Assembly (NCBI GenBank): GCA_024398055.1
Contig: CP073749.1
Span: 1,116,001 to 1,180,000 of the forward strand
From: a bacterium SCSIO 12741
Lineage (GTDB): Bacteria; Bacteroidota; Bacteroidia; Flavobacteriales_G; Salibacteraceae
Direction of reading: 5' to 3'
Length of the DNA stretch: 64,000 nt
The notes beneath the pieces are model-generated. The model was not told the DNA's origin and did no database searches. It saw only the letters and a list, made by a program, of their open reading frames with translations. Numbering within the stretch: the stretch's first letter is position 1; each line of letters opens with the position of its first letter. Shown here piece after piece: positions 34,110 through 40,241 of the stretch. The position numbers and the translations under genes are program-made.

Positions 34110-35675
34110 TTATTCTTTTATAAAGCCATTCACGTATTTGACACTTCGTGTAATGTTTCCATCCTCATCGTAGAATTTCCAAACCCCGTTTTGGACCCCT
34201 TCTTTGTAGGATGTTTGGCTCTGAATTTTATCGCCTTTGTAGTAGGAAGTGCTCGGACCGTGAAGTCTATCGTCCTTATAACTGACTTTGCGCAGCAGCT
34301 GTCCCCACTCAGCATAGTATTCCCAGGTCCCGTTTTTTCTACCCTCTGTGTACGATCCTTTTTGATCGATATGCCCATGTGCGTAATAAAAAGTCCACAT
34401 ACCTTCTCTTATACCACCTTTGTAGGATCCGGTTTCACGAGGTTTTCCGGAAGAATAAAAGAATTCCCATTTACCTTCCTTTAAGCCATCCTTAAGTGAG
34501 CCGTGGTAATTGGTCTTACCGTTTTCGTACCAGCCGGTCCATTCGCCAACCATCTTACCCGCAGCAAAACTCCCCTTGTCTTTAGGGCCTTTGGATTCGT
34601 ACCAGGAATTCCACTCTCCTTCTTCTTTACCGTTTTCGTAGTTCCCTTCCTGAAGCTTGTTTCCATTTTCGAACCAGGTGGTCCACAGCCCTTCTTTAAT
34701 CCCTTGGGCATAATTCCCTTTTCTCCAGAGGCTGCCATCTTCATACCAGAAGTTCCACTCCCCATCTTTTTTTCCGGACCGGAATAGCCCTTCACTTTCT
34801 TTCACCTGAGAGTCTTCGAAATAGTAGGTCCAGAGGCTGTCTTGTAATCCCTGGTCAAAATAGCCAGACATGTAAAGGTGCCCGTCTTCCTGAATAAACT
34901 TCCAGAAGCCATCCTTTTCATCTTTTTGGTAAAACCCACTTACCTTGGATTGTCCATTGGCATACCAACTCTGAACGGCCCCTTGCTTCATGCCTTTTTC
35001 GTAATTCACTTCATTCTCGGGGCTACCGTTAGCAAAAAACTTCTTCCAAAGGCCAGTCTTTAAGCCTTGCTCGTAGCTTCCCGATTCTTCTATTTGATCT
35101 GCCGTGTACCAACGTTTGTAGGGGCCATCGAGAATTCCGTTTTTGTAGTGGTTCTCAGCCATTATGGACTGCCCCATGTATTTGTAGAAAACTCCGGTTC
35201 CATGGGTCAGAGATTGAGAGCCATCACGCTTCCAGGCATTTTCTAAACGCACCTCACGTTTGTTCCAGGTTTCTTCCTTATAGTTTTTTCCATCCGGAAA
35301 ATAGTAGGTCCAAAGGCTGTCTTTGTACCCCCGTTCAAATTGTCCTTTGGCTCTTACCTGTCCCTCTTCAAACCAGGAGGTATATACACTATCTTGCAAA
35401 TTGAAATAGAAGTAGCCTTCATTCATTTTTTGGCCATTCTCGTACCAAACGGTTACCGATCCATGCAACTTTCCTACGAGGTAGTGGCTCTCTTCTTTCA
35501 GCTTTCCGCTTTCGTACCAATAGGTCCACTTGCCGTCCTTTACTCCATCAACATAATTCCCTTCACTGAGTTTAAGGGTACTGTCTTTGTCGTAAAACCC
35601 GGTATAGTGTTGAACGTTTTGCGCCCAGGATGTGAGCCCAATAGTTATGAGTAGAAATGAAAAAATGCTGCGCAT
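34110..35675 (-). CDS. Exported MORN-repeat protein (about 19 repeats)
   Basis: The 521-residue protein begins with a signal peptide ending in LTSWAQ and otherwise consists almost entirely of about 19 tandem repeats of roughly 23 residues with the pattern G-x-W-x-x-W/Y-Y/F-x-x-G, such as GEWNFWYEDGSLWRKGNYAQ. These are MORN_2/YwqK-type repeats, which form an extended beta-hairpin ladder. Databases often label such proteins as antitoxins, but nothing here supports that, and an exported scaffold or protein-binding surface is more likely. One repeat near residues 150-175 is degenerate. It has its own promoter element, and rimP follows 92 bp downstream. Confidence 0.85.
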   Translation of the reverse strand: MRSIFSFLLITIGLTSWAQNVQHYTGFYDKDSTLKLSEGNYVDGVKDGKWTYWYESGKLKEESHYLVGKLHGSVTVWYENGQKMNEGYFYFNLQDSVYTSWFEEGQVRAKGQFERGYKDSLWTYYFPDGKNYKEETWNKREVRLENAWKRDGSQSLTHGTGVFYKYMGQSIMAENHYKNGILDGPYKRWYTADQIEESGSYEQGLKTGLWKKFFANGSPENEVNYEKGMKQGAVQSWYANGQSKVSGFYQKDEKDGFWKFIQEDGHLYMSGYFDQGLQDSLWTYYFEDSQVKESEGLFRSGKKDGEWNFWYEDGSLWRKGNYAQGIKEGLWTTWFENGNKLQEGNYENGKEEGEWNSWYESKGPKDKGSFAAGKMVGEWTGWYENGKTNYHGSLKDGLKEGKWEFFYSSGKPRETGSYKGGIREGMWTFYYAHGHIDQKGSYTEGRKNGTWEYYAEWGQLLRKVSYKDDRLHGPSTSYYKGDKIQSQTSYKEGVQNGVWKFYDEDGNITRSVKYVNGFIKE

Positions 35676-35907: not shown

Positions 35908-36870
35908 ATGAAAACTCCCCATCTTATTTGGATTCTGGTTCTTTTCTTCGGGCTTTGGGCCTGCAAAAAAGAGCCCCTTGAACATCCTGAAACCAAAACA
36001 GGAACAATGGTTGTTGCGCAATCAGAAGATTCGAGCGCTTCACCAAGCCCTCAGCCCATTTCAGAAAACCGTTCCTCTTTATTCTGGAAAGTCTCTGGAG
36101 GCGACCTCGAAAAACCTTCCTACTTGTTTGGCACCATCCATTTGATACCGGAGCCCCAGCTGGGCTTTATTCCAACACTGGATTCACTTCTACTACTTAG
36201 CGACAGACTGGTACTCGAAGCCAACCCTCGAGATCCAGCTATTCAGGCAGCATCTAGTAAACACGCTGTCCTTGATCCGTCCTTAATCCAGGATATGTAT
36301 ACGCCGGCAGAAATGGCCATGCTCAGCCATTTTTGCGATTCCATTGGATTGGATTTTAACCAGCTGGTGCGGTATCAACCTCTTGTTATTGCTCAACTTA
36401 TCACCACACGGGTTTTAGGTGCTGCCTATCCTTTGACGAGTTATGAAGATGAACTAATCCAACTGGCCGAGAAACGTGGAGTGATTCTGGATGGAGCCGA
36501 AGGTCCCGATTACGTCTATTCTTATCTAAGCAAATTAGATGCACTGGAACAGGCTGATAATCTGGTATTACTAACTGAGACGGCCAAACAAGACCCAAGA
36601 TTGGGCTATGATGAAATGCTGGATACCTATCTTCGACAAGACATTGAGGGTCTTTACAACCTGGTAAAAACCGGTATGGGAAGTAGCCCTGAAAACATCA
36701 ATATTCTGGTATCGGAGCGCAATGAATACTGGTTGAGTCACGGCTTAATCGATCAGCATGAAAGTCGGTTTATTGCCGTTGGTAGCGGCCACCTCTATGG
36801 AGAACGGGGCTTGATCCAGCTACTGAAGAAAAAGGGATACAAAGTAGAATCGATCCAGGTAAGCAAATGA
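35908..36870 (+). CDS. TraB/GumN-family lipoprotein
   Basis: The 320-residue protein has a lipobox (FFGLWAC, Cys19), then a Ser/Pro-rich linker and a TraB/GumN (Tiki-like) domain. Family motifs are YLFGTIHLIPEP with the GTIH histidine, the acidic LVLEANP, and the C-terminal FIAVGSGHLYGERGLIQLL. Members of this fold include metalloproteases related to Tiki, so a metal-dependent hydrolase at the membrane is plausible but not shown. Its stop overlaps the start of an ECF sigma factor by four bases (ATGA), an unusual pairing. Confidence 0.87.
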   Translation: MKTPHLIWILVLFFGLWACKKEPLEHPETKTGTMVVAQSEDSSASPSPQPISENRSSLFWKVSGGDLEKPSYLFGTIHLIPEPQLGFIPTLDSLLLLSDRLVLEANPRDPAIQAASSKHAVLDPSLIQDMYTPAEMAMLSHFCDSIGLDFNQLVRYQPLVIAQLITTRVLGAAYPLTSYEDELIQLAEKRGVILDGAEGPDYVYSYLSKLDALEQADNLVLLTETAKQDPRLGYDEMLDTYLRQDIEGLYNLVKTGMGSSPENINILVSERNEYWLSHGLIDQHESRFIAVGSGHLYGERGLIQLLKKKGYKVESIQVSK

Positions 36871-37358
36871 CACTACCACAAGGAACTGAACCCCAACTGG
36901 AAAAAATGATCCGGGATCACCTGCTGTTGATTCACAAGGTGTCCTGGTTCTATACCCGGGATCCGGAAGAACGGAAAGACCTGGCCCAGGAAATTGTGTA
37001 TCAGATTTGTCGATCCTACTCCTCTTTTAAAGGAAACTCCAAGCCCAGCACCTGGATTTACCGAATAGGAATCAACACGGCTATTGGTCAGTTGCGCCAG
37101 AAAAAAATGATTACCGAACCCCTTTCCCAACACACTCATTTGGCCCAACCTGATGAGGAAAAAAGGGAGCAACAGAAAGAGCTCCAGCAAGCCATCCAAC
37201 GATTGGATGAAGCTGAAAAATCACTGGTCATGCTCTTTCTCGACGACATTCCCTACCGAGAAATCGGTGAAATCCTGGGAATAAGCGAAAACCTGGTGGG
37301 TGTAAAAATTCACCGCATTAAAAACAAACTCAAAAAATTCATTCATGGAACTGCATAA
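36867..37358 (+). CDS. ECF-family RNA polymerase sigma factor
   Basis: The 163-residue protein has the two-domain ECF layout. Region 2 spans about residues 15-75, with RKDLAQEIVYQICRSYSSF and STWIYRIGINTAI. Region 4 spans about 105-160, with LVMLFLDDIPYREIGEILGI and NLVGVKIHRIKNKLKK as the helix-turn-helix. It overlaps the TraB/GumN gene by four bases upstream and the next membrane protein by 14 bases downstream, so the three are translated together. The membrane protein is in the usual anti-sigma position. Confidence 0.93.
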   Translation: MTLPQGTEPQLEKMIRDHLLLIHKVSWFYTRDPEERKDLAQEIVYQICRSYSSFKGNSKPSTWIYRIGINTAIGQLRQKKMITEPLSQHTHLAQPDEEKREQQKELQQAIQRLDEAEKSLVMLFLDDIPYREIGEILGISENLVGVKIHRIKNKLKKFIHGTA

Positions 37359-37995
37359 TTTAAAAACCGAATGGGCTCAAGTGAGCGAACAACTTCAGGA
37401 AACGCTTCCCGACCTTCCCTCTGCAGAAGTTCAGAGCGTCTACCAATCCATGCCTTACAAAAGACTCATTTATAACAACCTCTTAGAATTGGGCTTCAGC
37501 GCAATGGGTGTTCCCGTGGTAGGCTTGGCTATGCTTTTGATGGATCCTCAGGGATACCTTCCCGCCGGAGTTAAATGGTTGGCCTGGATTACAACATTTG
37601 TCCTTCTGGTCCCATCCTTTGCGCTCTTTCGAGCCATTCATCAACCCGACGCTTCGTTGAGCACCGTGTCCTACTTGAAAAGTGTGAGTAGCCGCATTCG
37701 GTTTTACCGCATATATCAAGTGGTGATGAATTTTTTCCTCTGTATGATCATTTGTATTCCCGGGTTCTTAACCTCTCGAAAGTGGATTCTAACCCTGGAT
37801 GGAGAAACATTTGAAGGCGTTATCAATTTTCCTGAGCCCTATTTTACCCAATACGTTTTGGCAACGGGAGCCCTTTCCATCGTTATGTCGATTTTCGCTG
37901 CAGCCTGGGGATATACGGCCTATGCCATCTTTTATAAGAAACGAAAAGGAGCCTTGGATCGGATCATTTCAGGGTTTGAAGGACAGGCGGGATAA
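37345..37995 (+). CDS. Four-helix membrane protein, candidate anti-sigma factor
   Basis: I do not recognise a named family. The 216-residue protein has an N-terminal soluble segment of about 45 residues (ELHNLKTEWAQVSEQLQETL), then four hydrophobic helices near 47-68, 76-96, 123-145 and 170-195, and a basic C-terminal tail. The gene overlaps the ECF sigma gene by 14 bp, the classic place for an anti-sigma factor, and the N-terminal cytosolic helix could hold the sigma factor. No zinc-binding HxxxCxxC motif is present. It is not a standard FecR-type anti-sigma factor. Confidence 0.75.
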   Translation: MELHNLKTEWAQVSEQLQETLPDLPSAEVQSVYQSMPYKRLIYNNLLELGFSAMGVPVVGLAMLLMDPQGYLPAGVKWLAWITTFVLLVPSFALFRAIHQPDASLSTVSYLKSVSSRIRFYRIYQVVMNFFLCMIICIPGFLTSRKWILTLDGETFEGVINFPEPYFTQYVLATGALSIVMSIFAAAWGYTAYAIFYKKRKGALDRIISGFEGQAG

Positions 37996-38067: not shown

Positions 38068-38802
38068 ATGCGGATATTGTTTTCCTTGGGTTTTATCCTA
38101 ACTGTACTTCTAAGCCAGGCTCAGGTCTCTCACATGGCCTGGGATGACCTGGTAAAAAAACATGTAGCTCCCAATGGGGATGTAAACTACAAAGGGTTTA
38201 AAGCCGATGAAAAGCACCTGGACGCCTATCTGGACATGCTGGCCAACAATGCTCCTCAGTCCAGCTGGGGCAAGGCTGAAATTATGGCCTATTGGATCAA
38301 TGCCTACAATGCCTACACCGTAAAGTTGATTTGCAAGCACTACCCAGTGGAGTCCATCAAAGACTTGGGTGGAATGATCTATCAGGTGAACACCACCTGG
38401 GACATTGATTTCATAGAAATTGGTGGGGAGAAAATGAACCTCAACAACATTGAACACGACAAACTACGGGGTCAGTTCAAAGATGCCCGAATTCATTTTG
38501 CCGTGAATTGTGCCTCCATTAGTTGCCCACGACTGAGGAACGAAGCCTTTGTTGCCTCTAAACTGGAAAATCAACTCAACGATCAGGCTCGCTACTTCGT
38601 CAACAACTCCATTAAGAATCAAATTAAAGGAAAGGACAAGGTGTATATCAGCAAACTATTTAGCTGGTATTCCGGAGATTTTACCCGAGATGGGAAAACC
38701 ATTCGGGAATACATTAATCAATATGCACAAAGCCCCATTCCGGCAAGCGCAGCCATTGATTACCTCGAGTACAACTGGAAGCTGAACGAAAAGAAAAATT
38801 AA
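38068..38802 (+). CDS. Exported DUF547 protein
   Basis: The 244-residue protein has a signal peptide ending in LLSQAQ and a DUF547 domain. Typical stretches are AYWINAYNAYTVKLICKHYP, KMNLNNIEHDKLRG and the cysteine motif HFAVNCASISCPRLRNEAF. The fold looks related to papain-like or transglutaminase-like folds and keeps conserved Cys and His residues, but no activity is known. It is the first gene of a run with a peroxidase-like protein (26 bp gap) and ArsS, so a role linked to arsenic metabolism is possible. Confidence 0.86.
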   Translation: MRILFSLGFILTVLLSQAQVSHMAWDDLVKKHVAPNGDVNYKGFKADEKHLDAYLDMLANNAPQSSWGKAEIMAYWINAYNAYTVKLICKHYPVESIKDLGGMIYQVNTTWDIDFIEIGGEKMNLNNIEHDKLRGQFKDARIHFAVNCASISCPRLRNEAFVASKLENQLNDQARYFVNNSIKNQIKGKDKVYISKLFSWYSGDFTRDGKTIREYINQYAQSPIPASAAIDYLEYNWKLNEKKN

Positions 38803-38828
38803 TTTAGCCCTCTATCCAAAGGAAAAGT

Positions 38829-39167
38829 ATGAGCAGTAAAACTTATTATGACCCCGCTGACCTAAAAAAGTTTGGCGATATCGCTGAATGGAACGACGAC
38901 CTTGCCAAACGTTTTTTTGATTGGTATAACGCCGTTTTTGAGGAAGGCTCGCTAAGTGCACGAGAAAAGTCTCTGATTGCTCTGGCCGTTGCTCACACGG
39001 TACAATGCCCTTATTGTATTGATGCCTACACGGTAGACGGAATGAAACGAGGAATTAGTGAGGAAGAAATGATGGAGGCCCTACATGTGGCCGGTGCCAT
39101 TAGAGGAGGAGCTAGCTTGGTTCATGGTGTTCAGATGATGAACAAAGCCAAGAAGCTCGGCATGTAA
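38829..39167 (+). CDS. Arsenosugar biosynthesis-associated peroxidase-like protein (CMD family)
   Basis: This small (112-residue) carboxymuconolactone decarboxylase/AhpD-like protein has the helical signature REKSLIALAVAHTVQCPYCI with Cys60 and Cys63. In AhpD the motif continues to a His four residues after the second Cys; here that position is Tyr67 (CIDAYT). Proteins of this exact type accompany arsS genes and are named after that association; the chemistry is not established. It is 18 bp upstream of arsS, so co-expression is near certain. Confidence 0.9.
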   Translation: MSSKTYYDPADLKKFGDIAEWNDDLAKRFFDWYNAVFEEGSLSAREKSLIALAVAHTVQCPYCIDAYTVDGMKRGISEEEMMEALHVAGAIRGGASLVHGVQMMNKAKKLGM

Positions 39168-39185
39168 TTCCAGGGAATAGTCATT

Positions 39186-40241
39186 ATGATTAAATCTTTA
39201 AAAGCTCAGAATCACCGATTGGCTTCTACTGAGGAGCAGCTTCAATTTTTGAACAATGGCATTTTTGCTTCGGGTGATCATGAGAAGTTTGAAATTTACC
39301 TTCAGCGCAATGAGCGATTTCCATTGCGCCCCGCTCAGCTGGAAATTCTCCAGGTGAATGTGGGCTATATGTGTAATCAAACCTGTAAGCATTGCCACGT
39401 AGACGCCGGACCTGATCGCAAGGAGATTATGACTCGGGAAACGATGGAGTTGTGCCTGGATGTCCTGGAGAAAAATCAGATTCCAACCTTAGACATTACC
39501 GGCGGGGCTCCGGAAATGAATCCCGACTTCAGATGGTTTGTTGAAGAGGCGCACAAGCGAGGTGTACAGGAGATCATTGTTCGATCCAATCTCACCATTT
39601 TGCTGGCCAATCCCAAATACCATGATTTGCCCGAGTTCTTTGCACAACACGGTATCCGGGTAGTATCTTCACTTCCCTATTACCGACGAAATAAAACGGA
39701 CAGACAGCGAGGCAATGGCGTTTTCGATAAATCGATTGAAGCCTTGCAACGACTCAATGAAAAAGGATATGGCAAACCAGGCAGTGGCCTAATCCTCGAT
39801 CTGGTTTACAACCCAAGTGGCGCATTTTTACCCGGCGATCAAATGCAATTGGAACTGGACTTTAAGCAAGCATTGAAAAAAGATTTTGACGTAAGCTTTA
39901 GTAACCTTTTCACCATTACCAATCTGCCCATTTCCCGTTTTCTGGATTACCTGATTGTGTCCGAAAACTACGAAGACTACATGGACAGATTGATCACTGC
40001 ATTTAATCCCTCAGCCATTGATGGGGTCATGTGTCGCAATACCATATCGGTAGACTGGCAAGGCCACATGTACGATTGTGATTTTAACCAAATGCTGGAA
40101 ATAAAAACCAGTCCGGCGGCTGGTCAGCACATCTCGGAGTTTGACCTAAAAAAGTTAACGAACCGAGCCATCCGAACGGATCAGCATTGCTTTGGCTGTA
40201 CAGCTGGAGCAGGTTCAAGCTGCCAGGGTACGGTAGCCTGA
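39186..40241 (+). CDS. arsS: Arsenosugar biosynthesis radical SAM protein ArsS
   Basis: ArsS is the radical SAM enzyme that joins an adenosyl moiety to dimethylarsenic during arsenosugar synthesis. The 351-residue protein has the cluster motif CNQTCKHCHVDAGP (Cys63, Cys67, Cys70), LDITGGAPEMNP and a C-terminal cysteine-rich end CFGCTAGAGSSCQG. Late in the chain are GVMCRNTISVDWQGHMYDCD and DFNQML. No arsM methyltransferase or arsR regulator lies in the window, so the rest of the pathway must be elsewhere. Its stop is 7 bp from the stop of the next, convergent gene. Confidence 0.95.
   Translation: MIKSLKAQNHRLASTEEQLQFLNNGIFASGDHEKFEIYLQRNERFPLRPAQLEILQVNVGYMCNQTCKHCHVDAGPDRKEIMTRETMELCLDVLEKNQIPTLDITGGAPEMNPDFRWFVEEAHKRGVQEIIVRSNLTILLANPKYHDLPEFFAQHGIRVVSSLPYYRRNKTDRQRGNGVFDKSIEALQRLNEKGYGKPGSGLILDLVYNPSGAFLPGDQMQLELDFKQALKKDFDVSFSNLFTITNLPISRFLDYLIVSENYEDYMDRLITAFNPSAIDGVMCRNTISVDWQGHMYDCDFNQMLEIKTSPAAGQHISEFDLKKLTNRAIRTDQHCFGCTAGAGSSCQGTVA

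Follow-up and report, generated by a model that had tools for sequence, protein, structure and literature searches.

The window, the whole stretch of 64,000 nucleotides that was analysed, belongs to a genome of 5.1 Mb in a single contig. Three ORFs, all on the forward strand, follow each other at 35908-36870, 36867-37358 and 37345-37995. The first encodes a TraB/PrgY/GumN-family envelope protein of 320 amino acids, a putative lipoprotein. The second encodes an ECF sigma factor of 163 amino acids with regions 2 and 4, and the third a four-helix membrane protein of 216 amino acids (the 4-TM protein), proposed here to be an anti-sigma factor from its position behind the sigma gene. The overlaps of 4 and 14 bp claimed in a preliminary description of the locus were confirmed from the ORF coordinates; the TraB stop and the sigma start share an ATGA (36867-36870), and the sigma stop overlaps the 4-TM start at 37345-37358. 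The latter overlap has the same length in the nearest relative, the sibling genome G013 (same family code), in which the sigma factor is 54% identical and the 4-TM protein 25%. No TraB gene is found beside the G013 pair in the 17 kb read.

On one side of the three genes a 521 amino acid protein with 11 scored MORN_2 repeats is encoded divergently on the reverse strand (34110-35675). At 38068-40241 there are genes for a DUF547 protein, a member of the carboxymuconolactone-decarboxylase family and a radical SAM protein with DUF3641, the last two of which we take to be an arsenosugar-pathway pair.

TraB/GumN proteins are related to the animal protease Tiki. The window protein matches PF01963 over residues 58-314 (E 8.1e-41, 141 bits against a cut-off of 26.8, profile positions 1-262 of 263) and is thus a member of this family. 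Its N-terminus, ...LWAC-KK (MKTPHLIWILVLFFGLWAC-KK), was taken by eye to be a putative lipobox. A PDB sequence search with the protein gave nothing useful. The PF01963 search found the family in 10 of 42 genomes of the order and 130 of 295 of the class. Among the matches listed there were 127 distinct proteins; five in frames of at least 520 amino acids were left out, as were 34 listed long-frame places and a 186-codon fragment in G284. The remaining 122 proteins (frames below 520 amino acids) come from 117 loci in 112 genomes with 39 family codes, and 20 of them are linked to a sigma gene as described below. The residues G75, T76, H78, E104, E198, R271, N272 and H295 are near-invariant, each being found in 120-122 of the 122 proteins and in all 20 of the linked ones, and all are present in the window protein. 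His78 of the GTxH motif (36139-36141), a putative metal or catalytic residue, is a histidine in 120 of the 122 proteins, and His295 of the second conserved histidine motif, VGSGHLYG (36790-36792), in 121 of 122. The family match and the conserved residues bear out the TraB/GumN motifs described earlier for this gene. The window protein departs from the others at some otherwise conserved positions, including L197 (A) and Q203 (V). Because the active-site residues are intact in all 20 linked proteins, the linked copies look, as far as sequence can tell, enzymatically competent.

TraB matches of a second kind, in open frames of about 1000-1290 codons, occur at many places in the class, including L001 (G000:C1:4388813-4389595); the long-frame protein of the window's own genome begins with the TraB domain. 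Tandem TraB/GumN genes are found in L127, L128, L150, L153 and L133, in four of these five beside a sigma gene. Behind the TraB gene of L129 (G079) there is, at L129:2358-3689, a gene for a membrane metalloprotease of family M50 (site-2 protease type), a full RseP-like protein with PDZ domains; the gene behind TraB in L135 (G224) scores 24.5 bits for M50, short of the Pfam cut-off of 27.2. In L152, which is of f56 like L185 and L193, TraB is preceded by an ORF of 110 codons that encodes two hydrophobic segments, and the aligned upstream DNA of L185 and L193 shares its start. Genes presumably of biotin synthesis flank the cluster.

The sigma factor matches Sigma70_r2 (E 1.7e-11, residues 14-80) and Sigma70_r4_2 (E 5.2e-11, residues 104-155) in Pfam, and sigma70-ECF (TIGR02937) in NCBIfam with 89 bits. 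Regions 2 and 4 are found and no region 3 family is listed by Pfam, as is characteristic of the ECF group. No shared ECF promoter motif was found upstream of the operons when 15 regions were compared. The related loci L127, L128 and L150 all have the pattern AAC-N15 to 19-CGT/GTC at -51; it is found elsewhere upstream in L013, L161, L165 and L169, and is absent in the window and seven other loci. A scan for sigma-70-type promoters found one, with 3.8 expected.

The AlphaFold2 model of the 4-TM protein (pLDDT 80, pTM 0.60) begins with two helices, residues 3-20 and 26-34, that precede the membrane part and that are compared with CnrY below. They are followed by four long helices (37-64, 68-97, 107-146 and 164-215) with a short hairpin (149-156) between the third and the fourth, all encoded at 37453-37989. 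Only 3 residues are left between helices 1 and 2 and 17 between helices 3 and 4. The model agrees with the earlier description of the gene product as a membrane protein of four helices whose N-terminal helix is soluble. The predicted cytoplasmic N-terminal helix (residues 1-20, 37345-37404) carries the conserved L6 and W10 and is the proposed sigma-binding element. The segment between helices 2 and 3 has five positive and one negative charges and the C-terminus five and two, a positive excess that favours a cytoplasmic place for both. The N-terminal segment is net negative (three positive, six negative), and by itself is therefore no argument for a cytoplasmic N-terminus. In the topology that we infer, the N and C termini would be cytoplasmic and the periplasmic parts small.

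The window 4-TM protein matched no Pfam family at E up to 1 and no NCBIfam family. None of the 37 aligned family members reached a Pfam curated cut-off; the best match was DUF2207_C in L038 (E 9.7e-6, 25.9 bits against a cut-off of 33), and the other Pfam matches were scattered. In NCBIfam the matches of the 37 members were weak and scattered over five unrelated families, each of them hit by a single member (best E 0.0036). A class I anti-sigma domain, of the zinc or the RseA type, was thus not found by Pfam or NCBIfam in any of the 37, and the earlier statement that the third protein has no known anti-sigma motif is right at the sequence level. Nor did the 21 PDB sequences listed for the 4-TM profile (E up to 10) include an anti-sigma chain, so that no sequence relation to known anti-sigma families was detected in PDB sequences, Pfam or NCBIfam. 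Foldseek with the model gave no PDB match at E up to 0.001, and VIA-align gave generic helical bundles alone (Z up to 10.4).

Conservation among the 37 members is uneven. W10 has the highest score of all positions and is a tryptophan in 34 members. Residue 48 is a glutamate in 31 of 37. Towards the C-terminus Y197 is found in 26 of 37, and position 210 is a glutamate in 29 of 37 and a glycine in the window protein. The lowest mean conservation is found in the stretch 147-163. The stretch between helices 3 and 4 has a median length of 24 residues in the 14 TraB-linked proteins and 21 in the 23 others (P 0.008, a value that ignores kinship).

The 4-TM gene is constantly associated with an ECF sigma gene. 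A search with a two-row sigma alignment against one genome per species gave 77 sigma loci, nearly all from Bacteroidota. In 57 of these the next ORF encodes 198-231 amino acids with a start like M-E-x-x-x-L-x-x-x-W. Some of the remaining 20 end at contig ends, and twelve carry proteins of 141-159 residues with two hydrophobic segments, mostly beside more distant sigma factors. The visible N-termini of these twelve often have a Cys-x-x-Cys, and by their sequences the proteins resemble anti-sigma factors of the ordinary zinc type. When a profile built from 16 4-TM proteins, of which 15 are TraB-linked, and free of sigma information was run on the 295 class genomes, it matched in at least 40. All 15 of the further 4-TM loci that were read (L237-L251) have an ECF sigma gene directly upstream. 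The anti-sigma position noted earlier for the third gene recurs in 57 of the 77 sigma loci and in all of the 15 further ones. No TraB gene was found in the 1.5 kb flanks of the 15 loci, nor within up to 5 kb on either side of the 77 sigma loci. The class searches with the 4-TM and sigma profiles scored the first 10-12 candidates per genome, which makes absences in them soft.

The window protein is a divergent member of this family. Used alone as a query among close relatives it was found in 2 of 41 genomes, its own included, and a two-row alignment found it in 1 of 295, its own genome. Its direct match to the family profile is weak (best 27 bits; hhalign probability 70), the match is strong in profiles that contain the window protein itself, and the TraB-linked members form a bridge between it and the 77-locus set. 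The partner class was defined in this analysis as proteins of about 200-230 amino acids directly behind an ECF sigma gene, with hydrophobic helices and a start like M-E-L-x-x-L-K-x-x-W. The window protein has these properties, and judged on sequence it is a member of a large, unnamed Bacteroidota family.

The survey of TraB/GumN genes for neighbouring ECF sigma genes, which had been suggested as a check on the locus, was positive. An ECF sigma gene of the window subfamily lies in the flanks of about 1.5 kb in 16 of the 117 TraB loci (the 20 linked proteins), with seven family codes and in both gene orders. In 15 of the 16 loci the gene next to TraB is the sigma gene or its 4-TM partner. The order TraB, sigma, 4-TM is found in 11 loci: the window, L127, L128, L147, L150, L152, L161, L165, L185, L193 and L013, the last with a start codon that overlaps the sigma gene by 8 bp before the contig ends. 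The order sigma, 4-TM, TraB is found in five loci, L131, L135, L153, L169 and, with one ORF between, L122. L118, where the sigma gene is on the opposite strand and of another ECF type, was left out of the linked set. L150 was counted as linked and left out of the sigma tree; its sigma frame (L150:3458-3933, G086) is split into two overlapping frames by either a frameshift or a sequencing error, and its TraB and 4-TM genes are open.

The linkage is far more frequent than expected by chance. In the class, 33 genomes have both TraB and a sigma gene of the subfamily, and in 15 of these, with seven family codes, the genes are together, where 0.09 would be expected for an interval of 5 kb, an expectation valid for the sigma profile A6, since this profile was seeded partly with TraB-linked loci. 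If each genome is allowed 20 ECF genes that could all serve as the neighbour, the probability is 4e-8 for 16 of 117 loci and 1e-16 for same-strand adjacency (15 of 117); with 60 ECF genes assumed per genome, the corresponding values are 0.014 (5 kb interval) and 7e-10. The counts and these probabilities reject a chance neighbourhood of the two genes. The sigma gene is also the most widespread neighbour of TraB in BLAST clusters of the 117 loci (6 family codes, 15 genomes), followed by an aminotransferase-like gene (4 family codes, 10 genomes) and the 4-TM gene (4 family codes, 9 genomes), the count for the latter probably being too low because the gene diverges fast.

The phylogenetic trees show that the linkage is scattered. 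The TraB label switches 10 times over the 102 rows of the sigma tree (quick IQ-TREE), and at least four of these switches are set by starred branches; over the 122 rows of the TraB tree (FastTree) the sigma-link label also switches 10 times, at least five of them by starred branches. The link therefore appears to have been gained or lost repeatedly. The exact place of the window in the trees is unsure, since its sigma factor is long-branched and FastTree warns of long-branch joining for its TraB row. A TraB protein of G147 is closely related to a linked one and has no sigma gene in its flanks. The two gene orders and the scatter over both trees reject descent as a single inherited block. Only 15 of the 112 subfamily sigma matches in the class sample fall in TraB-linked genomes; with so many sigma genes that have no TraB nearby, TraB is an optional partner and might just as well serve as an output enzyme.

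A pair model was obtained from a read-through chain of the sigma and 4-TM genes of L153 (pLDDT 84.7, pTM 0.56). The sigma factor in this model resembles SigW in SigW/RsiW (Z 15.2, rmsd 3.1 over 145), RpoE in RpoE/NepR (Z 15.2, rmsd 3.0 over 151) and CnrH in CnrH/CnrY (Z 14.1, rmsd 3.0 over 143). Full-length alignments with sigma factors bound to RNA polymerase gave an rmsd of about 27, and with the sigma factors bound to RseA and MucA the alignment covers a single domain. Also close is SigG1 (Z 13.6, rmsd 4.3 over 156), a PDB entry that mentions no anti-sigma factor in the title. Because SigG1 is compact too, the compact sigma form of the model lends weak support to an anti-sigma complex.

The three genes are proposed to form an envelope-linked sigma-factor module, a reading to which we give about an even chance of being right. 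The 4-TM protein would hold the ECF sigma factor to the inner membrane through its short, cytoplasmic, N-terminal helical segment, much as CnrY does with its short anti-sigma domain, which wraps around the sigma factor. On a disturbance of the envelope, sensed by its membrane or periplasmic part, the 4-TM protein would release the sigma factor, which would then transcribe its regulon. TraB/GumN would be the dedicated envelope protein of the module, with the Tiki-type active-site residues intact, and most likely an output enzyme under the same regulation, with a peptide or polypeptide of the envelope as its target; it may also feed back on the signal. Sigma binding, release, autoregulation and the role of TraB are the steps that we infer. 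The 4-TM protein is judged to be probably a membrane anti-sigma factor, on the basis of its position, the constant pairing and the conserved N-terminal helix. The signalling unit of the preliminary description, in which the lipoprotein senses or cleaves something at the envelope and the membrane protein releases the sigma factor, is thereby supported in part.

The 4-TM protein could instead be a membrane effector or a positive partner of the sigma factor, in a plain ECF operon with envelope genes. The lack of a known anti-sigma domain and of a fold match would suit such a role, as would the conservation of parts of the C-terminal region (Y197 and position 210), but the gene directly follows the sigma gene in the great majority of loci, the most conserved residue sits in the N-terminal segment and not in the membrane part, and zinc-type-looking anti-sigma proteins are found at the same place in twelve of the 77 sigma loci. 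This makes either of these roles quite unlikely. That TraB and the sigma gene are linked passively, by shared descent or a favourable site and with no functional tie, is very improbable; the small linked fraction of the TraB loci and the differences between near relatives would fit, but not the two orders, the seven family codes, the scatter over both trees and a rate far above chance.

For TraB the alternative is an input arm, in which the protein would set the release of the sigma factor by binding or cleaving either a signal peptide or the 4-TM protein at its short periplasmic loop. It would then be comparable to RseB, CnrX and PrgY, each of which works upstream of the regulator in its own system. 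ECF factors are often regulated by third genes of their operons, as in rpoE-rseA-rseB and cnrYXH. The intact active sites of the linked TraB proteins, the slightly longer helix 3-4 stretch in TraB-linked 4-TM proteins and the two loci where TraB adjoins a site-2-protease-type gene, one of them by a sub-threshold match, also speak for an input. The model, however, leaves little to cleave between the helices, and many sigma/4-TM pairs do without TraB. An input role is for these reasons the less likely one. The optional presence together with the intact active site fits an envelope enzyme that is co-regulated better than a sensor that is obligatory, and TraB is judged to be a dedicated but optional envelope enzyme of the module. 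A bolder reading, that the 4-TM proteins are a widespread new class of polytopic anti-sigma factors and that TraB serves one set of them as a dedicated signal-input protease, is unlikely to hold in full. If true, the class would fill much of the gap left by Bacteroidota ECF factors that have no known regulators, and a Tiki-family protein would control transcription across the envelope.

To our knowledge, the bacterial role of TraB/GumN proteins outside pheromone shutdown is largely open, and the recurring association with a sigma factor offers a way to test it. The recurring sigma/4-TM pair is likewise a concrete candidate for an anti-sigma class of Bacteroidetes ECF factors. According to passages of PMC7406223, a class I anti-sigma domain adjoins just 6% of these factors, and other classes or broken synteny are suggested there; on that figure another anti-sigma class is to be expected. 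Nothing on TraB/GumN paired with an ECF sigma factor was found in the open PubMed Central papers searched; both terms occur in PMC12292232 and PMC10100999, in passages with content unrelated to such a pairing.

The RpoE-RseA-RseB and CnrH-CnrY-CnrX systems of Proteobacteria likewise combine an ECF sigma factor, a membrane anti-sigma factor and a third protein on the envelope side in one operon. RseA and CnrY are single-pass membrane proteins, whereas the window partner is a four-helix protein without detectable similarity to them, and the third gene is of the Tiki/TraB type in place of RseB or CnrX. CnrH/CnrY resembles the pair model in the compact form of the sigma factor. The first helix of CnrY binds sigma 4 and the second sigma 2, as described in passages of PMC7406223 and PMC4598750, and by analogy this two-helix binding is a plausible model for residues 1-36 of the 4-TM protein.

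PrgY and plasmid TraB belong to the same Pfam family as the window TraB, and PrgY, a homologue of plasmid TraB, is believed to break down a pheromone peptide extracellularly (PMC7117660, in part). The passages of that paper on TraB/PrgY name no sigma factor partner, unlike the window trio. The EcfO-Reo and Das-Dma systems of Bacteroides (passages of PMC13114119 and PMC13088901) consist, as here, of a Bacteroidota ECF factor and an adjacent membrane-spanning regulator, and are tied to envelope stress. Reo spans from the cytoplasm to the surface, and Dma2 combines a single transmembrane helix with a long tether and, at the C-terminus, a beta-barrel (same passages). With four long helices, no barrel and 216 residues, the 4-TM protein is not a dual-membrane anti-sigma factor of the Dma kind as described in part of PMC13088901. 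The three genes can also be likened to cirY/cirZ-spy of Phocaeicola vulgatus, where, according to passages of PMC13114119, a sigma/anti-sigma pair is co-transcribed with an envelope effector, the effector being the Spy chaperone in that operon and a TraB protein in the window.
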